From Sphaerochaeta sp. (GTDB taxonomy: Bacteria; Spirochaetota; Spirochaetia; Sphaerochaetales; Sphaerochaetaceae), in the NCBI GenBank assembly GCA_016342655.1, contig JAEINL010000005.1, positions 1-64,000 of the forward strand: a DNA stretch of 64,000 bases, given 5' to 3'. The notes beneath the pieces are model-generated. The model saw only the letters and a list, made by a program, of their open reading frames with translations. It made no database searches and was not told the DNA's origin. Made by a program: the position numbers and the translations under genes. The first letter of the stretch is position 1; the number at the start of each line of letters is the position of its first letter. Shown piece after piece: positions 4,626 through 17,131 of the stretch.

Positions 4626-7407
4626 CTATGGAAACAACAAACGGTTGGATTTCACCCTTGAAGCTGAGGATTAAGTAGGAAAAGTCGCACTTTACGGGAT
4701 CAGTTGCTTATGAAGCCTTCCTGTTTATAAGTGACTTGAGAGACTCAATAAACGTTGGAGCATTGATGAATTTCTTCAGTTTGTGAGAAACCGGATATGT
4801 ATTGGTGCTTAATGAATTCAGGTGAGAGCGAACGATTTCCGCATCAATATCAGCGAACCTCTCCCCCAGGGTTTGTCTGCCATCGAGCAGTATATTCATA
4901 TAGTCTTTGTTCCGTAGGTTCATTACCAGAGGAGTGTCTTCAAGCATTGCCTTCAATACTCTGGTCACTGCCTGAAAACCATTTTTCTTTCGATATTTCC
5001 GCATAAAATTTCGAAAAAATTGCTCGAGCAAATTATTTGTCCGTTGAGGTTGGATGAGCATTTTCCCTGCAGGAGTTTCGATTGTGATAGGATCACAGAA
5101 AAGCTTATCCCAATACTGAGTGATTGTACCGACCAGCCTTTGATACGCTTTTTCTTTCATACGGTTCGTATCCTTGGATAGCCGGGTATGAAACTTCTTA
5201 ACCTCTTTTTCGATCGTTTCCATGTTGCAGGAGTCTCCCATATCATTGAGGCCCCGCTTATTCTCCGGAAGCGTTATTCTCATGGCAGTTCTGAGGCGGC
5301 CAAATACCACCACTTTCTCCTGCATCCTGGCCGATGCCTTTTTGAGTACCGAATCCCTGATGACCGGCTTCAGGTCACCGCGAATGGTAGTACAGAGCCT
5401 TTTCTCCTTGGCAGTCTTACACACAGAAGCGAATCTGACCGTACCCAGAAGTGTGTATGCACTTACCAGTCTCTGGTAGAAGCTCAGATAGGGCTGGTCA
5501 AAAGGGAATCCGCATCCTTGCCCCTGATGCTTGCCCTCAAGTACCCAGACAAGCAGTGTGTGGATAATAAGCGGTACTAATCCTTCACAACTGCCGGGGG
5601 CCAACTCCTCTTCAGTCTCGAAAATCCTGATGTATGTCTGCATCAGGTGTGGTGGGGAACTGGCAACAGTAGCGTGCAAGGTGCGTACCCTCTTTTTTAG
5701 GATACCCTGTATTGCATAACCCTTTAGCCTTTTCCTGATGCTGTCATGCTCCTCCCCCAAAAGGTTTTTCCCTGCCGCCTTGAGAAAATGGAAATGACAG
5801 ATGAAGGTCGGAACCTGTGCAAACACTACCCTGACGGCCTGGGCTATCCCTTTGCCCATGTCACTGACCACTGCCACAGGGTCCCCGTAAGCAGTCTTGA
5901 GTTCTGCAAGAAACGGGATCAGCTCATCGGCGTTCTCGGTAGATACCTTTGTATTGTCAAGTACGATTTCTGTTATACCGTCGAGCACGCTGACCAGATG
6001 CGGACTGTCTCCGTCACAGGTGCCGTCGAGGTGCAGGATGTATCCTCCTTGTATCGACAAGAATGCCCTTGTCTCTTTCTGCACCTTTTTATGCAGCAAT
6101 GACAGATATACGATGAACTTCTTCGCCAGGTAAGAGATCTCACTCTTGCTGATGGTTATGTGCTTTTCTGCCAGAGTCGCTGCTATCTGTTGGTTGTCAA
6201 CAGAATCCAGGAAAAAAGCCTGTCCCACAGCGACCAGCACATCATAGCCCATGGTACATCGTACAGGGACCAGTCGCTTCAGCTCTTCAGAACCTACGAC
6301 ATGCCCGCACTGTGAACAGGTGTACGTAACTTCTCGGGCCATGAAATCTCCGATAGCCAGGGTCGCAACCTGTTTGGTGGTTGTCTTGAGTATCTTCATT
6401 GGTGCTTCACATCGTGGGCAGGCAAGAGATTCGGGTCGGAAGGTAATGGTGGGCAGGATGGGAAACAGGCTTGCAGATGCCAGATTGTCTGTCAGTCGGG
6501 TAAGGATCCCCCTGAGAACGCTCACCCGTTCATATTCAGTTTTTTTTTTAAGACCATAGCTACGAAAAAGGTTCTCAATCATGAGCACGTCGGTCTTGTG
6601 TCCCGCCTTCCCTAGCTTCTGCGCGATTTCTTCCGGTGAGAAGTCCGGGTGTCTGATCAACTCAACAAGGATAATGATACTCAAGGCATCCGAAGGCAGT
6701 TCCAGTGCCGAAGGTTCCGGGGGAAATCTTCTTCTCTTCTGAGCCTGGTATATCGCTTCATCGGCTGAAAAGTACACTACCTGCCGTTTGTGCTTTTCCC
6801 TCTTCACTCCCTCAAGGGCCTTGTATTGGGGAAGGTAGGAGTTGGGATTTGTCCCAAGAATCTCCTCCAGCTCAGAATTGGACAGCCCTCTTGCAGCTAT
6901 CTGCACCAGATGCACTACGGTATCCTTCATCGTACCCTGCTTGGAGAAGAAGGCCCCTTCATGTCTCCACAAGCCCTGCTTGTTGAACGCCGGTATCGAG
7001 GGAAGTGTGTAATACTGTCCGCTTCGATTGTAGCTGCTCAGTGCGTCCCACTCTTTCAGACGTCTTCGTACGGTGGCTTCAGAAAGCTGCAGCAGCAGAC
7101 AAAGGGAAGTGAAGGTCAATACCTTCTGCTGCTTGAAAGCAGTGATGGCTTGCTCGTTCCGGTCTGTTTTTCTTGGTCGCATACGCTTCTCCTGTTATGA
7201 ATATATCTAAGTATTCAAGTAGTTGGATTACTTATATACCGTAGATTATATCATAACAAAAGGAATAATTCATCCCTTTCAAGCCAAAACAACCCCTTTT
7301 TCCCCTGAAAAAGCTGCAGGTTATGAGAATACCTACATGATTTTGTTTGAGTTATTTGTTTTATGGATGGAATTTATTCAGTTCACAACCGTTTGTTGTT
7401 TCCATAG
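4626..7407 (-). mobile_element. Complete insertion sequence, 2.78 kb, 22-bp perfect TIRs, 8-bp TSD (ctaattct)
   Basis: ctatggaaacaacaaacggttg (4626-4647) and exact reverse complement caaccgtttgttgtttccatag (7386-7407); ctaattct at 4618-4625 and 7408-7415. Confidence 0.93.
4708..7182 (-). CDS. Large DDE-type transposase with N-terminal winged-helix-like and zinc-ribbon regions
   Basis: 824 aa; CPRCEAP...CSQCGHVVG; HLDGTCDGD, VVSDMGKGIAQAV...ICHFHFLKA, TNNLLEQFFRNFMRKYRKKNGF as candidate D, D, E regions; sits between TIRs. Confidence 0.85.
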   Translation of the reverse strand: MRPRKTDRNEQAITAFKQQKVLTFTSLCLLLQLSEATVRRRLKEWDALSSYNRSGQYYTLPSIPAFNKQGLWRHEGAFFSKQGTMKDTVVHLVQIAARGLSNSELEEILGTNPNSYLPQYKALEGVKREKHKRQVVYFSADEAIYQAQKRRRFPPEPSALELPSDALSIIILVELIRHPDFSPEEIAQKLGKAGHKTDVLMIENLFRSYGLKKKTEYERVSVLRGILTRLTDNLASASLFPILPTITFRPESLACPRCEAPMKILKTTTKQVATLAIGDFMAREVTYTCSQCGHVVGSEELKRLVPVRCTMGYDVLVAVGQAFFLDSVDNQQIAATLAEKHITISKSEISYLAKKFIVYLSLLHKKVQKETRAFLSIQGGYILHLDGTCDGDSPHLVSVLDGITEIVLDNTKVSTENADELIPFLAELKTAYGDPVAVVSDMGKGIAQAVRVVFAQVPTFICHFHFLKAAGKNLLGEEHDSIRKRLKGYAIQGILKKRVRTLHATVASSPPHLMQTYIRIFETEEELAPGSCEGLVPLIIHTLLVWVLEGKHQGQGCGFPFDQPYLSFYQRLVSAYTLLGTVRFASVCKTAKEKRLCTTIRGDLKPVIRDSVLKKASARMQEKVVVFGRLRTAMRITLPENKRGLNDMGDSCNMETIEKEVKKFHTRLSKDTNRMKEKAYQRLVGTITQYWDKLFCDPITIETPAGKMLIQPQRTNNLLEQFFRNFMRKYRKKNGFQAVTRVLKAMLEDTPLVMNLRNKDYMNILLDGRQTLGERFADIDAEIVRSHLNSLSTNTYPVSHKLKKFINAPTFIESLKSLINRKAS

Positions 7408-7499
7408 CTAATTCTCCCTAACATGAAGTTTTCATTCAGATCCTAACTATCTAAATGTGATCAAAGGCCTTTGAGCTAGATTACAAAAGGAAATTAGGT

Positions 7500-8027
7500 A
7501 TGAAAGAACTTGAAGAAAAGAAAATTTCTAGACTTGGGTATCAGGTGGAGTGTGAAGTATCGGTACAGGCAAAGACTGAAGAGGATGAGGAACCTTGGGA
7601 TGTAGAAAAGGCAATCGAACTAGGGAAGACATTCGTCATAGGGTACAGGGCTTCAAAGAAGAATTTTGAGAACTATATGCCTGTCTTACTTAAGGCGCAG
7701 CAGGAGCTTTCAAAAGAAGGTAATCCCCACCGAAGGATAAATGGCGATTTAATTACATGGAATGATTATTGCGAGACCATTGGGGTATCTAGGAGGACAG
7801 CTAACAACTGGCTTGCAAACTACCGTCTCGCCATAGGCGAAGCTTCCCCTAAGAAAAAAAGGAAGGACAAGCCAAGTGGAGGCATCCAGGACCCTCCAGA
7901 AAAACCAATTAAAGACATCAAGATTACCGTTGGAACCAAAGACGAGGATGGCAACCTCGTTATCAATTATCATTGCTCAGACTGTGGTTTAAAACACCAG
8001 ATAACCATAATTAAGGAGATTTTATGA
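7500..8027 (+). CDS. DUF3102-like hypothetical protein, translationally coupled to the downstream methyltransferase
   Basis: 175 aa; TWNDYCETIGVSRRTANNWLANYRLAIGE segment; stop overlaps the next ATG (ATGA at 8024-8027). Confidence 0.6.
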   Translation: MKELEEKKISRLGYQVECEVSVQAKTEEDEEPWDVEKAIELGKTFVIGYRASKKNFENYMPVLLKAQQELSKEGNPHRRINGDLITWNDYCETIGVSRRTANNWLANYRLAIGEASPKKKRKDKPSGGIQDPPEKPIKDIKITVGTKDEDGNLVINYHCSDCGLKHQITIIKEIL

Positions 8028-8959
8028 ACAACAATACAAACAACACAGGTCCCACAAGCATCACCCTTTTTGCAGGTGGTGGTGGAAGTATAGTAGGAAG
8101 CAAGAATGCCGACTGCAAGGAATTGCTGGCAATCGATTTCGACGAAAACTCATGTGAAGTTCTCAAGCTCAACAACACAACAGACGGAACACTGGATTTT
8201 CCAGTATGGCAAAGGGACATCCAAATTGTCACGTCTACAGAGATTATGGAAGCAACAGGACTCCAGGTGGGGGGGCTCGACATCCTTAATATGTCACCAC
8301 CGTGCCAGGGGTTCTCGACGCAAAACACCAAAAGGGACCTCAACCATCCGCTCAACCGCTTGATTTACCACGCTATCAGATTTATCAGAGAAATGCAGCC
8401 GAAGGTGTTCATCATCGAAAATGTACCTGGAATGGTACAGGGCATAATGCAAGAAAACTGGAAAAAGAAGGCAAAGGTTCTGATCAGTTTGGGATACAGG
8501 GTGAGGTGGAAAATACTTGATGCGAGCCACTACGACGTGCCACAAGCACGAGAGAGAGTATTCGTCATTGGTATCCGTAACGACCTAGGTATAACACCGA
8601 CATTCCCCAAGCCTGACTTGGATCATGTTGTCACATTCACTGAGGCAACGGGCAAGGATGGGTTCCTGACTGAGCAGTACGGGGGAAAGGTTTTCTGGGG
8701 TGACAGGCCCTGCTTCACTATCACGAAGAACAGAAATATGTCGTTCTATGGTGATAAAGGCACATACAAGCCTGGCATCGATAACATCAAAGAAATCGAT
8801 GACGTCAAGGCCCTCTGTGGTTTTCCCCGTGATTACAAGCTCATAGGGTCCTCTACTGAACAGTGGGCACGTCTTGGCAACGCCGTGATGCCACCTGTCA
8901 TGGAAGCGATAGTAAGGCATATAAGGGAAACTGTATTTGATCATCTCAACATGAACTAG
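8024..8959 (+). CDS. DNA (cytosine-5-)-methyltransferase
   Basis: 311 aa with C5-MTase motifs: LFAGGGG (I), SPPCQGFST (IV), IENVPGMV (VI), QARERVFVIG (VIII), ARLGNAVMPPV (X). Confidence 0.93.
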   Translation: MNNNTNNTGPTSITLFAGGGGSIVGSKNADCKELLAIDFDENSCEVLKLNNTTDGTLDFPVWQRDIQIVTSTEIMEATGLQVGGLDILNMSPPCQGFSTQNTKRDLNHPLNRLIYHAIRFIREMQPKVFIIENVPGMVQGIMQENWKKKAKVLISLGYRVRWKILDASHYDVPQARERVFVIGIRNDLGITPTFPKPDLDHVVTFTEATGKDGFLTEQYGGKVFWGDRPCFTITKNRNMSFYGDKGTYKPGIDNIKEIDDVKALCGFPRDYKLIGSSTEQWARLGNAVMPPVMEAIVRHIRETVFDHLNMN

Positions 8960-8995
8960 ACAGGTTGAGAGGTCAGTTATAACAACGAGAAGGTT

Positions 8996-9019
8996 AGCTG
9001 GGAAACTTAGCCCAGTTAA
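8996..9019. repeat. Hairpin-forming 24-bp motif, second copy at 3238-3261
   Basis: agctgggaaacttagcccagttaa against acctgggtaatctagcccagttaa: 20 of 24 identical; both keep CTGGG...CCCAG arms. Confidence 0.55.
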
Positions 9020-9145
9020 CCCTCATACCTTTAGTTGCATAGGGACTACCGGCCAGTGACCCTAGCAACACCCAGAAGTTCCGTGACCGTGGGGTTTTCT
9101 GGGAAACGACAACTATATACATGTAACGCAATAAGGAGATGAGAC

Positions 9146-9388
9146 ATGAACGAAGAGATGAGAGAAGAAATTGACGCCCTGGTACCTAAGAAAGCCTGGT
9201 TCAGCCTGAAGGAAGTCTGTGCACTGAAGAACCTCTGCTACAAGACTTCATGCAACAACACCGACCTGCAGCCGCTCAAGGGCAAGCCTGACGGCAAGAT
9301 TGGAGGGAAGAAGATGTGGCTACGGATGACGCTGATCAGCTGGCTCACCATGACAGACCAGGACATCAAGGGGGATACCACCAAATGA
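9146..9388 (+). CDS. Small helix-turn-helix/excisionase-like protein
   Basis: 80 aa; AWFSLKEVCALKNLCYKTSCNN...GKIGGKKMWLRMTLISWL. Overlaps the next gene's start (ATGA at 9385). Confidence 0.5.
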   Translation: MNEEMREEIDALVPKKAWFSLKEVCALKNLCYKTSCNNTDLQPLKGKPDGKIGGKKMWLRMTLISWLTMTDQDIKGDTTK

Positions 9389-11580
9389 AAATCAAGGTGA
9401 CTACCGGCTTGGCTGGAACAGGGAAGAGCTATGAGATGTACAAGGCCATCAATGATTATATCCATGACAATGAAAATGATCATGTCATGGTGCTTTCATT
9501 CAACAGGGCTCTCAAAGAGAAGGCGATGTCCGAGCTTGAGGATTGCAAACGGTGTAGCATCCATACTATCCACAGCCTTTCATATGATATGCTCAAGTAC
9601 TTTATGAGACTGCCAAAGGCTTTTCAGAACCTGGCATCTGCACCAGATCAAAACGCCAGCTGTATTAATGGGGAAAAAGGCAAGTTCGATACCCTTATCC
9701 ATAAGGCGTTGCAATTATGCATAAAGGACCCTGCGTCGATACGAAAGTACTTCCAACACCGTTCCCCAAATGCAATATTCATAGATGAATTCCAAGACTT
9801 GAGACGTGACTACGTCGAGCTGGTGTTCCAGATTTCTTCAATCATGGGAACAAAGCAGGTAATCCTCATGGGCGATCCAAACCAGAAGATATACGAGTAC
9901 CTCAACGCCCATGCCAAGGATGTTCGATTCAAGGGGCTGCCCTACCCCACAAGCACAAGTATAGAGGACAACTTCTCCAAGGTGACGGAACTGTTCCATG
10001 CCCAGAAAGAAGACATCTCAAATAGTTGCCTGAATATATGCAGACGCTCGACACTTGAGATACAACAAGCCATCAACCATTTCTTATCAGGCAATGGAGG
10101 CATCCAGGGAGACCTATACTATAAATTGGACGGGCAGCAACCATCAGGGGACAAGGCAAAGGTAAGGATATTTACTACGAAAGAAGAAGAATTCATATGG
10201 GTATGTAAAGAAGTCAGCAACCTGCCTGCTGGGGCTGATATCCTCATAGTCTCACAGTATAACCATGTACTCAAAATGTATGAAAGCCTTGTGACGCAGG
10301 CGAAAGAACAGGAGATCAGCCTAGATCTATGCGCAGTAGATGAGATGGCAGTCACTACCATACATAGGCAGAAAGGATTGGAAGCAGATTTTGTGTTCCT
10401 CGTGGGAGTACAGGGAAAGGAGGTCCTAGAGAAGGTATGCCAGGACGAGATGCTATCAAAGGAGCATGATCACCTGGACATCTACAACCTGGTACCTCAG
10501 GCTGACACGGGAATAACAGACGTCATCTATACGGGCATGTCCAGGGCAAAGAAACAGTTGTCCCTCTCAACGAGTTACCCAAACTCTCCCCTTGAGGTCT
10601 TCTCAACATGCAGCCATATCTGCTTCAGTGACACCAGGAATGCCGTAGCGAAGTCCTGGAAACGGTTCCCTGTATTATCACTGGACAGGAATTTCACCCT
10701 CGACAAGCTCAAGAAGTCTTCCATAGACTCACTGATCATTAATGTAAGGGATGTCGATGCACCTTTTCTCAGATATGTACCTAAAGGCAATATCCCAAAG
10801 GATAAGGGTAAATTCCAGAAGGGGTTCGTAGGACATGAGAGAGGTGTCCCGGTCACAGTAATAAGGAACAACGGCAAAAACGGAAGTTACCAGTTCGAGA
10901 TGCTGGACCTCAACCCTCTGAAAAAGAGAGGCTACAGTGATATACAGATACTTAGACACTGCATGAACTATGTACTGAAGTTCTTCGATGAAAGGATAGA
11001 CCCAGGCAAGATGGAGATAGCAAGGCTGGACATAGCGCTATACCGTCAGTTCAATGATGCCAGTGAAGCGAAAGCCGTCCTCAACAGCTTCTACGCTGGA
11101 ATAGACCATTCTAAGATCAACAGTGTTAAAGACAACTCAGGGAATGCCTACAGTGTTGTAGAAGGCAAGAGGTTCAAATCATGGGGAATCCATACCCTGT
11201 ACCTGAACTTTCATGCGAATAAGCATGGTAAGAAACACCCCTGCGTATACAGAATATACAATACTAATAACAAGAACAGGAACTATCAGGAATCCACTGA
11301 GGATAGAAATCAAAGCGGGTATACCAAAAGGAATTGCTGGAAGGTTGAATGGAAACTTACAAGCAGCGTCCTTAGAAGAAACTATGCACTTAAAGGTAAC
11401 AACAACTGCAGAAGCCTGATGGAGTCCTTACAGCGAGATGATGCTTTCCTGCTGGACTTGTATAAAAGCATAAGCAATCACTTCAACCTGCATGTAGGCA
11501 AGATATTCGATATAGGGGAAGGTACCTCTGAGACAGCAGACACCCTACTGACTTTAGAGAGAGCAAGGCTGCATATGTAG
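9385..11580 (+). CDS. Superfamily 1 (UvrD/Rep-like) helicase with a C-terminal replication-initiator-like region
   Basis: GLAGTGKS (Walker A), IFIDEFQDLRRDYVEL and LMGDPNQKIYEY, TTIHRQKGLEADFVFL, YTGMSRAKKQL. The C-terminal ~280 aa include MEIARLDIALYRQF and VYRIYNT...WKVEWKLTSSVLRR. The ORF track starts at 9316, but ATG 9385 overlaps the upstream stop and begins MKIKVTTGLAGTGKS. Confidence 0.85.
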   Translation: MKIKVTTGLAGTGKSYEMYKAINDYIHDNENDHVMVLSFNRALKEKAMSELEDCKRCSIHTIHSLSYDMLKYFMRLPKAFQNLASAPDQNASCINGEKGKFDTLIHKALQLCIKDPASIRKYFQHRSPNAIFIDEFQDLRRDYVELVFQISSIMGTKQVILMGDPNQKIYEYLNAHAKDVRFKGLPYPTSTSIEDNFSKVTELFHAQKEDISNSCLNICRRSTLEIQQAINHFLSGNGGIQGDLYYKLDGQQPSGDKAKVRIFTTKEEEFIWVCKEVSNLPAGADILIVSQYNHVLKMYESLVTQAKEQEISLDLCAVDEMAVTTIHRQKGLEADFVFLVGVQGKEVLEKVCQDEMLSKEHDHLDIYNLVPQADTGITDVIYTGMSRAKKQLSLSTSYPNSPLEVFSTCSHICFSDTRNAVAKSWKRFPVLSLDRNFTLDKLKKSSIDSLIINVRDVDAPFLRYVPKGNIPKDKGKFQKGFVGHERGVPVTVIRNNGKNGSYQFEMLDLNPLKKRGYSDIQILRHCMNYVLKFFDERIDPGKMEIARLDIALYRQFNDASEAKAVLNSFYAGIDHSKINSVKDNSGNAYSVVEGKRFKSWGIHTLYLNFHANKHGKKHPCVYRIYNTNNKNRNYQESTEDRNQSGYTKRNCWKVEWKLTSSVLRRNYALKGNNNCRSLMESLQRDDAFLLDLYKSISNHFNLHVGKIFDIGEGTSETADTLLTLERARLHM

Positions 11581-12220: not shown

Positions 12221-12255
12221 AATACCACGTAATTGGCATAATGTGGTTATAGAAG
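12221..12255. promoter_or_regulatory. Candidate recombinase core site or operator upstream of the tyrosine recombinase
   Basis: ACCACGTAAT-TGGC-ATAATGTGGT (12224-12247): 8 of 10 arm positions symmetric; contains GCATAATGT as in dif-type sites; ends 45 bp before ATG 12292. Confidence 0.35.
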
Positions 12256-12291: not shown

Positions 12292-13146
12292 ATGGAAACA
12301 TCGGTTCAGAGAAAGAGGGGAGAGACAGAATACCTCGCCCTGTACCCCAAATACAGACGGGAGACCTCAGCTCTCATCAAATGGCTGCACACGAACACGA
12401 GGAGTCTCGACACGGAGTCCATCGGCGACTACCTTATATTCCTCAAGGATTGTGGCTACGCACCCCGCAGCTACAACCTCAAGCTTACAGCAATCAAGGA
12501 AAGCCTCAGGTGGGTGTTCGACCAGAGTACCGACTCGATGGACATGGGCAAGAAGATGCAGCTCGAGGCTTTCCTCAAGACACTCAAGCCGTACAAGATA
12601 CAGTCCATAGCGATTTCCGATGACAAGGTCCTGTCACGTGAAGAGGTGGACCTCTTGAGGGCTTCGGTCACACTGAGACTGGGCATCATCATATCGTTCC
12701 TCTACCATACAGGGTTGCGCATATCAGAGTTGACAGGAATCAGGCTTGACGACATCAGGGAAAACGGCGCCTATGACTACATCCAGATCCTCGGCAAGGG
12801 GAACAAGATACGTGAAATCAAATGCCGGAGGGAGCTCATGGATCAGATAAGGGATGAGTTCAATGGATCCGTCTACCTTTTCGAGTCTGAGGTATGGAGA
12901 CAGGGCAATGAAGGGGGCCGTCCCCTGAGCCGCCATAATGTCTCAAAGGCCATAACGAAGGCAGGGCTGAAATACCTGGACAGGGAGATATCAGCCCACA
13001 CGTTCAGACACTCATTCGCAACTCGCCTGATCGGTGAGGGAAAGAACATAAAAGGCGTCTCAGGTTACCTCGGCCACAGCTCGGTGAAGACGACGCTGGA
13101 CCTCTACGTCCATGACAGCCTGGAGCTTGGCGACCTGCCGGTGTGA
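12292..13146 (+). CDS. Tyrosine recombinase (XerC/XerD-like)
   Basis: 284 aa; HTGLRISELTGIRLDDI (R), HTFRHSFATRLI (HxxR), YLGHSSVKTTLDLYVH (GH, catalytic Y). Confidence 0.93.
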   Translation: METSVQRKRGETEYLALYPKYRRETSALIKWLHTNTRSLDTESIGDYLIFLKDCGYAPRSYNLKLTAIKESLRWVFDQSTDSMDMGKKMQLEAFLKTLKPYKIQSIAISDDKVLSREEVDLLRASVTLRLGIIISFLYHTGLRISELTGIRLDDIRENGAYDYIQILGKGNKIREIKCRRELMDQIRDEFNGSVYLFESEVWRQGNEGGRPLSRHNVSKAITKAGLKYLDREISAHTFRHSFATRLIGEGKNIKGVSGYLGHSSVKTTLDLYVHDSLELGDLPV

Positions 13147-13923: not shown

Positions 13924-15552
13924 TTACGTTTTGAAAATATGTTTTCTATGATATTCAAAATATTTCTTCTGCTTTTCTGTCAGTGTTTTGTGTAATCTCA
14001 TATATATGGAAATTCCTAGTCTTGAAAGATCTTCTTCTGAAATATGGGGGGAAATACTAATTTTACCCTCATTATCAAATGATATAAGTCCTTGGTCAAA
14101 TGCCCTATCCAGATTTGGGACAAGTAATAATCCATTATCTTTATCAGTAGACTCTAAAAGAGTACAAGCCTTCCAAGGCTTTATATGTGAAGCAATCAAC
14201 ATGTTTTCATTACGGCACCCAGTAACACTGCAATAATTCCAGTATTGGAGTAATGACTTTCGGTACGAACCTTGCCCTACTCTTGCCATAACCACTGTCT
14301 CTCGCTCATTAGGGGTAAGAGAGTCATATTGTTCTAAGTGTTCTGTGAAGCGAAATTCAGTAATCTGTTGATCTTCTAATTCTTGACTAACAGTAGCAAT
14401 AATCCAAACAAAGGAATGGGCATCAAGAAGAGATACTTCCTCAATGCCAAATTCAATTAGTAGTTGTTGGACCTGTTTAATATACGAAATATAAAGATTG
14501 TAGTTATCCCATGAACAGTTACCTGAAAGGGTAAAATCTTGAATACCTAAGAGCTTTAATGCCATCTCAAATCGAGTAGTACTCACGGGCAAGTATTGCA
14601 ATTTATTTTTTAAGAAAAAGAAAAAGGACATCAACGAATAGTGATTTGGGATAAGCTCCTGCAACAATATAAACGATTCCCGATCACTCTTAATTCCTCT
14701 ATAAAAATCAAAAAATGCTTGCTCCAACCGTTTTGAGGTATCTTTGTTAGGTCCAATCGATGCAAATCTTTCCACATCCTGCCATGGAACAAGATTCTTC
14801 CGGGCTTGCAAGGCAGCTACGACCTTAGCAAAGATTCTACCCGTGCCAATTTCCTTTTCCTTCCATTCTTCGTAGTCCAGTAGTATATTTGCTTTGCTAA
14901 AAACAGAGTCTTTGTATCCTTCACTATTTAATAGATATTCATTTTGAGAAAAGGAAGTAAATCCTTCGTTGCTATTTTGGTTTACCAAAGCTTTGAACAT
15001 GTCAAAATAGGTTAAAAATCTCACGGTATCTATTATTTGGGTTGATTGTACATTTCGAATAGGAATATTATGCAATCTATCGTTGATAATGTCGAATGAT
15101 ACTTTTGAAATAGGATAAGTTGAAGCTTGGATACCAGCAAAAATCAAGGGATCCTCTTCCTTGATTGCAGTATCTTCCAAATCGCTAAGAAGCAAAGGAT
15201 TATTGAGATGTGTCGAAATATATTCTAATTTTACCCTGTAACGTGGTATTTGGCCATCATCCTTGTTTATCCAAAAATCACTTTTATCTGAAACAATTTT
15301 TTGTGGCTGTGACATAACCCTTACAATTGCATATATTCCTGGTTGCAATCTAGGATTTCCGCCTAATTTCTTTTTTGACCTATTGTCTCTACCAACCCTA
15401 ATAATCCCTAACTCTCCAGATTTAAAATAGTCTTTATGGAAATCAGAAATTGAATAGATATCCTCAGTTACTCCAGATTTAATGAACCGATCAATTTCCC
15501 ATTTGTTCGGATTACACATGAACATCCAATAGCCAGTATTTGGTTTTTTCAT
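13924..15552 (-). CDS. EVE domain-HNH endonuclease (candidate modification-dependent restriction enzyme)
   Basis: 542 aa; EVE/PUA-like N-terminus (GYWMFMCNPNKWEI...GELGIIRVGRDNR...GIYAIVRVMSQP); HNH_2-type C-terminus (GSYRKSLLQYWNYCSVTGCRNENMLIASHIKPWKAC...NGLLLVPNLDRAFDQGLISFD). Confidence 0.88.
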   Translation of the reverse strand: MKKPNTGYWMFMCNPNKWEIDRFIKSGVTEDIYSISDFHKDYFKSGELGIIRVGRDNRSKKKLGGNPRLQPGIYAIVRVMSQPQKIVSDKSDFWINKDDGQIPRYRVKLEYISTHLNNPLLLSDLEDTAIKEEDPLIFAGIQASTYPISKVSFDIINDRLHNIPIRNVQSTQIIDTVRFLTYFDMFKALVNQNSNEGFTSFSQNEYLLNSEGYKDSVFSKANILLDYEEWKEKEIGTGRIFAKVVAALQARKNLVPWQDVERFASIGPNKDTSKRLEQAFFDFYRGIKSDRESFILLQELIPNHYSLMSFFFFLKNKLQYLPVSTTRFEMALKLLGIQDFTLSGNCSWDNYNLYISYIKQVQQLLIEFGIEEVSLLDAHSFVWIIATVSQELEDQQITEFRFTEHLEQYDSLTPNERETVVMARVGQGSYRKSLLQYWNYCSVTGCRNENMLIASHIKPWKACTLLESTDKDNGLLLVPNLDRAFDQGLISFDNEGKISISPHISEEDLSRLGISIYMRLHKTLTEKQKKYFEYHRKHIFKT

Positions 15553-15695: not shown

Positions 15696-16841
15696 TTATA
15701 CCGAAACCTCCTGCTCATTAGAGGTAATCCACATGGCATCGATAACATCTCCCTGGCTTTGCATATGGGCGGGTTCCCAATGTGTATACCTGTCCTGTAC
15801 GGCCTCGCTGTTCCATCCCAGCATCACCCTTATTTTATCAGGGTTCTCCCCACTGGCCCGTAACATCGTATTCAGGGTGTGTCTGAAACTATGAGGACGC
15901 AACCGCCTTCCTTCAGTGGGAATGCCAGCCCTTTCAAGCGCTTTGTCGAACCTCTTCTTCCACCAGGTTTCACCCAGACGAGAACCATCTATATTGCAGA
16001 ATACAAGATCATCAGGTGATTTGTTATATGTATCTTCCCAACGAAGTATCAGTCGTTCTCTGAGGATATTTGCCATAGGTACTGTCCTAGGATGGTTCGA
16101 TTTTGGTGGCCCGGTGGTATCCAAGTCTTTCCATGCATCTTCTACCGAAATGTAACTTTGTTCAAAATGAAGATGCTTCCACTTGAGTGCAAGAACCTCA
16201 CCTCTTCGCATTCCTGTGGTAGCCGCTAGAAAGAAACAGGTGTAATCAAGTACTTCGTTCCATATCTTTTTGTAGTCATCAGGAAATAATTTATCAAGTT
16301 CTTCAATGGAGAAGATCCCTGTTGGCTTGGCGTTATCCTTAATGTCACTGACACCGATCATAGGATTGACTACGATATCTTGTCGATACACAGCCTCATT
16401 AAAAATAACACGAAGGACACTCATGATCTTGTTAACTGTGCCAGACGCTAGGTCCTTCTTAGTAATTGAGGTGCGGAAGTCAAGGATATGCGAACGCCTT
16501 ATATCCTGCAAACGCATCTTTTGTAATCTAGACTTCAACACATGGGTCTCCAGATTGGTCCTCTGGATTGCCACATACCGTTTCGTGATGGACTTCCCTT
16601 CTTCACGCAGTCTTGCAGCGTGAGGGCAACTGTCCCAGAGAAAAAACTGATTTGCATAGTTCTCAAATACTTCATTCGATACCTTCTGGAGCCCATTGTT
16701 TTTAAGCAGTTCATTCACGTAGGACTCGGCCTTTGCTTTAGCCGTCAGACCTGATGAAGTGAAATTCACCTCACCCTTGAACTTGTAATACCATACCTTC
16801 CCTCGTTTCTTGTAACAGACGTCCTTGTTTAATCTACCCAT
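15696..16841 (-). CDS. Phage-type tyrosine integrase
   Basis: 381 aa; TTGMRRGEVLALKW, HSFRHTLNTML, LGWNSEAVQDRYTHW; AP2-like N-terminus; adjacent to tRNA-Val. Confidence 0.93.
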   Translation of the reverse strand: MGRLNKDVCYKKRGKVWYYKFKGEVNFTSSGLTAKAKAESYVNELLKNNGLQKVSNEVFENYANQFFLWDSCPHAARLREEGKSITKRYVAIQRTNLETHVLKSRLQKMRLQDIRRSHILDFRTSITKKDLASGTVNKIMSVLRVIFNEAVYRQDIVVNPMIGVSDIKDNAKPTGIFSIEELDKLFPDDYKKIWNEVLDYTCFFLAATTGMRRGEVLALKWKHLHFEQSYISVEDAWKDLDTTGPPKSNHPRTVPMANILRERLILRWEDTYNKSPDDLVFCNIDGSRLGETWWKKRFDKALERAGIPTEGRRLRPHSFRHTLNTMLRASGENPDKIRVMLGWNSEAVQDRYTHWEPAHMQSQGDVIDAMWITSNEQEVSV

Positions 16842-17059: not shown

Positions 17060-17131
17060 TAGGCGCGATTGGGTTTGAACCAACGACTTCTACCGTGTGA
17101 AGGTAGCACTCTCCCGCTGAGTTACGCGCCC
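17060..17131 (-). tRNA. tRNA-Val (anticodon CAC)
   Basis: Minus strand GGGCGCG TA ACTCAGCGGGAGAGT G CTACC TTCACAC GGTAG AAGTC GTTGG TTCAAAC CCAAT CGCGCCT A folds as a cloverleaf; CCA not encoded. Confidence 0.93.

Follow-up and report, generated by a model that had tools for sequence, protein, structure and literature searches.

The 731-amino-acid product of a gene in a 64,000-nucleotide stretch of DNA from Sphaerochaeta sp. (hereafter the window) carries a UvrD/PcrA-type helicase followed, in the same chain, by a domain with the ordered motif residues of Rep_trans and Phage_CRI rolling-circle initiators. Both domains, their order and the motif residues are conserved in homologues from other genomes of the phylum, and the gene repeatedly has a tyrosine recombinase beside it. 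Judged from its sequence, the fusion protein most probably acts as Rep_trans and gpII initiators do, but with a motor of its own.

The fusion gene and its helicase part

The gene lies at positions 9385-11580 on the plus strand. The open reading frame is real, as claimed in a preliminary description of this DNA, and its 731 residues contain all the motifs quoted there: GLAGTGKS, DEFQDL, GDPNQKIY, HRQKGLEADFVFL, MSRAKKQL, MEIARLDIALYRQF, VYRIYNT and WKVEWKLTSSVLRR. Since both halves recur together in homologues from four other genomes, faulty assembly does not account for the fusion. Immediately upstream, a small gene of 80 amino acids (9146-9388, plus strand) ends within the start of the fusion gene; because its stop codon and the ATG of the fusion gene overlap as ATGA, the two are probably translationally coupled. 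The product of this small gene, previously described as excisionase-like, found no family match in library searches and is helix-turn-helix-like by eye only.

The helicase part spans residues 1 to about 400 (9385-10584, plus strand). Pfam recognised UvrD N- and C-terminal domains in it (UvrD-helicase, E 1.4e-15; UvrD_C, E 9.7e-10; residues 5-396), in agreement with the earlier assignment to the UvrD/Rep type. The motifs that mark SF1A helicases, shared with PcrA, UvrD and Rep, are all present, intact and in order: Walker A (GLAGTGKS), DExx (DEFQDL), Q-GDP (GDPNQ), motif V (QKGLEAD) and motif VI (MSRAKK). Only about 105-110 residues separate the N- and C-terminal stretches that align with PcrA/Rep models, in which the distance is about 250-260, leaving the fusion helicase about 150 residues shorter where domain 2B sits. 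This suggests that most of the regulatory domain 2B is missing. A further difference from PcrA, UvrD and Rep is the added C-terminal initiator-like domain.

Conserved motif residues in the C-terminal domain

The C-terminal domain (residues ~444-672; 10714-11400, plus strand) was assessed by its motifs, a joint alignment and a letter shuffle. The active site of Rep_trans proteins comprises motifs N' (D), I (RxD), II (T/SxY/ExG), III (YxKxxE) and IV (W/LxRxE) (PMC5714925), and Phage_CRI proteins carry similar motifs (PMC5714925; PMC4797284); in the set D...RxD...TxY...Y...KxE of these rolling-circle initiators, the roles are those of DDE metal ligands and a tyrosine. Seventeen C-terminal columns are invariant across seven homologous sequences, and eight of them follow the published Rep_trans order: D448, R547, D549, T604, Y606, a tyrosine, K653 and E655. 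The resulting layout is D448 (N'), R547xD549 (I), T604xY606xN608 (II), Tyr625 or Tyr622 (III) and K653xE655 (IV). The aspartate of motif N' and the RxD of motif I are thus present, and D448, R547 and D549 are the same in all seven sequences. Motif II reads TxYxN in every member, keeping T and Y and replacing the final glycine of T/SxY/ExG by asparagine. Motif III has a tyrosine throughout, with K at +5 instead of +2 and no E, and motif IV is an invariant KxE in which K replaces R and the preceding position varies. The column of motif III depends on the alignment: the family alignment gave Y622 and the joint alignment with Rep_trans proteins gave Y625. In the latter, an unguided alignment with the true Rep_trans proteins of the phylum, the motifs of the fusion proteins fell in the same columns as theirs, and Y625 of RIYNTNNK stood opposite RIYDK and RFYDK. 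The Y-x4-K spacing in the relatives agrees with Y625 as the tyrosine of motif III.

When the 17 invariant letters were shuffled over their positions, the ordered motif set arose in none of 400,000 trials, with K allowed for R, any residue allowed at the motif II glycine, and a motif definition that was taken from the literature but after the family alignment had been seen. A regular expression fitted to the family matched 7/7 members, 2/388 decoys, 33/2,100 shuffled sequences and 5/43 gpII proteins; because of the few gpII matches, it serves as a guide only. No histidine occurs among the invariant C-terminal columns of the seven sequences, and no conserved histidine-hydrophobic-histidine (HUH) motif is seen.

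Profile and structure comparisons

No Pfam family matched residues 440-731 of the fusion protein, none of the family libraries recognised residues ~444-672, and no database match of the domain, in the window protein or its relatives, reached a curated cut-off. For Phage_CRI (PF05144), the window protein gave no match and one relative gave E 0.015 at 15.5 bits, below the Pfam cut-off of 21.7 bits; the same relative matched phrog_702, a replication protein, with E 0.014. PF02486 (Rep_trans) matched neither the window protein nor the relatives. In an hhalign comparison with 43 gpII proteins of phages, the alignment was colinear along the domain (P 0.0012; reversed controls, P 0.12 and 0.5); with nine gpII proteins, the comparison gave only P 0.033. 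Single gpII sequences were overrepresented among the high ranks of a list that included 132 mostly unrelated ORFs, with a fairly consistent register, none being significant alone. By hhalign, no match was obtained with three Rep_trans proteins; since gpII failed on the same three, this result is uninformative. Weak as they are, these independent comparisons point in the same direction as the motifs. The ordered motifs invariant in seven homologues support the likeness to Rep_trans and phage initiators put forward in the preliminary description, but without any curated cut-off being reached. Because of these cut-offs and the replaced glycine of motif II, we did not file the fusion protein under PF02486 or PF05144.

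A profile search of the PDB returned nothing. AlphaFold models of the C-terminal region, built from the window sequence only in single-sequence mode, were of low confidence (pLDDT 42.5 and 48.3). Over the first ~100 residues, which were predicted better than the rest, strands and helices follow one another in an order compatible with the motif layout. The structural comparison proposed earlier gave no significant fold match for these models (pLDDT 42-48), with TBP-like proteins among the best weak ones at rank 1, rank 3 (probability 0.72) and rank 4; the sole interest of these lies in the TBP-like fold of Rep_trans proteins (PMC13107129).

In the course of these searches, PF05144 matches in G222 and on G092:C100 (chemoreceptor-like proteins) and in G025 (a repeat protein) were discarded. 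Two further genomes of the phylum encode stand-alone Phage_CRI-type initiators of ~300 amino acids (L225:1402-2304 and L227:1144-2073).

Homologues and their history

A phylum-wide genome search found both halves in G130, G211, G092 and G137, and a profile search of the G211 family added a third copy from that genome. The six relatives of the window protein (23-36% identity) keep the order helicase then domain; the G137 copy lacks its N-terminus, as the contig starts there. A search of 393 genomes with a profile of the domain recovered the same set and a degenerate remnant in the window genome. This remnant, a C-terminal-domain fragment with no helicase, lies near a contig end (L131:6881-7408; G000:C150, minus strand). 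Among 395 genomes in the class to which G130 belongs, G130 was the sole carrier. The combination of helicase and C-terminal domain is rare and scattered. Helicase halves were all that tblastn detected in phages and plasmids, and helicase similarity all that was seen in a viral-contig scan and one scan of species genomes; scans of viral contigs (P0001, A1, P0010, P0012) revealed no carrier of the C-terminal domain. A degenerate DNA pattern (DLNxLK...D.QI) was abandoned, having matched just unrelated proteins of ~1,200 amino acids.

In a phylogenetic tree, the helicase halves of six fusions grouped together (support 0.92) to the exclusion of the other sampled helicases, which is consistent with one fusion event. 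The helicase-first order had been proposed to be new; it is conserved in the homologues, and no description of it was found in the titles and abstracts of the open-licence papers that the literature searches retrieved.

Neighbouring genes and the search for element ends

Downstream of the fusion gene and on the same strand, the window encodes a tyrosine recombinase of 284 amino acids (12292-13146, plus strand; Phage_integrase, E 1.2e-26). Noted earlier for the window, this neighbour proved recurrent: a tyrosine recombinase of 269-286 amino acids adjoins the fusion gene in four genomes (the window, G211:C7, G092 and G130), being divergent from it across a short gap in G211, G092 and G130. The window enzyme is 34-35% identical to the other three, and the pairs compared among these recombinases show 33-35% identity; within the recombinase set, the best score of each of the four was to one of the other three. 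The window also encodes a C5 cytosine DNA methyltransferase (8024-8959, plus strand; PF00145, E 7.8e-49), and such enzymes lie near the fusion gene in three of these four loci (the window, G211 and G092). The start of the window methyltransferase gene is overlapped by the gene of a 175-amino-acid protein with weak HTH/Cox-like similarity (7500-8027, plus strand; phrog_575, E 0.0012). An ArdC-type anti-restriction gene adjoins the two other G211 copies (one scanned, the other identified by matching sequence), and ParA is encoded on the G092 contig.

On the minus strand of the window, a second tyrosine recombinase, a phage-type integrase of 381 amino acids (15696-16841), stands beside tRNA-Val (17060-17131), and we infer that it belongs to the element of the fusion gene. 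A search with the 3' end of the tRNA found no second copy of an att repeat. The integrating element suggested in the preliminary description is accordingly not borne out by paired att copies, although a tRNA-adjacent integrase is present. Between the recombinase and this integrase, a gene at 13924-15552 (minus strand) encodes a 542-amino-acid EVE-HNH protein, likely a modified-DNA restriction enzyme.

The non-coding stretch upstream of the operon (8960-9145, plus strand) contains three predicted hairpins and folds more stably than most shuffled versions (z -2.93; 3/200 shuffles as stable). It has no Rfam match, occurs in a single copy in the genome and is a candidate origin or leader. The gap between helicase and recombinase genes showed no unusual folding (z 0.62).

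A predicted one-chain initiator and its alternatives

We consider it fairly probable that a mobile element starts its rolling-circle replication with this fusion protein, which would be a self-contained initiator with a predicted nickase and a helicase in one chain. The C-terminal domain, taken as distantly related to the Rep_trans/Phage_CRI endonucleases (pT181 RepC/RepD, M13 gpII), would bind an origin once the element is excised or circular, and Tyr625 would nick one strand, with the metal held by D448, D549 and E655. The domain would then remain attached to the 5' end through the tyrosine, while the fused PcrA/UvrD-like motor would load at the nick and unwind, leaving the 3'-OH as a primer for the host polymerase. 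The adjoining tyrosine recombinase may resolve, excise or integrate the element. M13 gpII works with a UvrD-type helicase, E. coli Rep. RepD nicks its origin, helps to recruit PcrA and raises its processivity (PMC4797284). Given these pairings, a UvrD-type helicase joined to a gpII/Rep_trans-like domain unites two known partners, and one chain would do what RepD achieves by recruiting PcrA.

The sequence by itself would fit conjugative mobilisation as well as vegetative replication. A relaxase-helicase with a NicK-like function, nicking an oriT and unwinding the strand so that a helper conjugation system can transfer it, accords with the presence in Rep_trans of the conjugation relaxases of ICEBs1 and Tn916 (PMC5714925), with the tRNA-adjacent integrase at the locus and with the ArdC-type gene beside two relatives; it is nonetheless unlikely, no secretion or coupling gene having been recognised among the scanned proteins next to the fusion genes. 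That the motif likeness arose by convergence or chance, in a new domain of different fold that binds DNA or has another function but is no nickase, appears a still poorer prospect: it would be in line with the absence of significant matches, by sequence or by structure, from every library used, but the domain is colinear with gpII, and eight of its 17 invariant columns agree with an ordered motif set known from the literature. Poorest is the case for a helicase of anti-phage defence or repair, its C-terminal domain serving there to bind or cut DNA; we regard this as very improbable. The best PADLOC matches of the helicase part were GajB-type UvrD helicases (E 1.1e-15), and a methyltransferase and the EVE-HNH protein lie nearby. 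The GajB matches, however, extend no further than the helicase core shared by such enzymes, and a scan of seven locus proteins revealed no GajA. It is a recombinase that recurs beside the fusion gene, and the motifs of the C-terminal domain belong to replication initiators.

Comparison with known systems

With Rep_trans proteins (PF02486: RepC/RepD of pT181/pC221, NicK of ICEBs1), the fusion proteins share the ordered D, RxD, TxY, Y and KxE and an SF1A helicase as working partner (PMC4797284). In Rep_trans systems this helicase is the separate host protein PcrA, whereas here it is fused in front; further differences are the N for G in motif II, the K at +5 with no E in motif III and a score below the Pfam cut-off. 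The link to Phage_CRI/gpII of filamentous phages (PF05144) rests on the colinear profile similarity and the one relative at E 0.015, and gpII too works with a UvrD-type helicase; gpII, by contrast, is a stand-alone protein of ~410 amino acids, and most fusion proteins have no PF05144 match. Rep-Arvir initiators of archaeal viruses and plasmids form another divergent Rep_trans-like branch, recognised by fold and catalytic residues; they are archaeal and linked to a MarR-like DNA-binding region, and the main text of the paper does not contain the word 'helicase' (PMC13107129). TraI/TrwC, Helitron Rep-Hel and CRESS Rep likewise join nickase and helicase in one chain, the nickase being a prediction in our case. 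In these HUH fusions the nuclease comes first and has the HUH fold, whereas here the helicase comes first. Because the C-terminal domain has no conserved HUH motif, the likening to TraI and Helitron proteins made earlier is limited to domain order, where the contrast holds.

In well-studied plasmids and phages, unwinding and nicking reside on separate proteins; here they would be joined, nicking being predicted. Rep_trans initiators recruit an SF1 helicase in trans, and work on its loading and processivity has relied chiefly on RepD and PcrA. With a natural fusion, stoichiometry and geometry would be fixed, and one protein would suffice to study nicking, loading and unwinding. The fusion further suggests that initiators and helicases were joined outside the HUH superfamily too, with reversed domain order. 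We judge the balance to be even on whether these proteins constitute a new one-chain initiator family, in which a compact PcrA-like helicase without most of 2B precedes a non-HUH Rep_trans-like nickase, with a recombinase of its own, and represent an undescribed class of mobile elements in the phylum; the fusion gene could serve as a marker for such elements.

Additional observations

Just upstream of the recombinase gene, the window contains an imperfect inverted repeat at 12221-12248, AATACCACGTA-ATTGGC-ATAATGTGGTT, which by eye resembles a recombinase core site. The G092 contig encodes two proteins of 791 and 959 amino acids that are related to each other (L082:5973-8348 and L107:4051-6930); a ParA gene and tandem tyrosine recombinases come after each of the two, which are possibly replication genes of another element. 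A claim of circularity for contig G092:C180 was rejected, the 20-base overlap of its ends alone being too short. An insertion sequence occupies window positions 4626-7408, with an 824-amino-acid transposase (4708-7182, minus strand) and inverted repeats near 4626 and 7386. At the contig start, a CRISPR-like array (106-655) consists of eight full copies and one partial copy of a 36-bp repeat, GTTTGAGATAGGTGTTATCTCATAGGGTTACTGACC, with a period of 66 bp.
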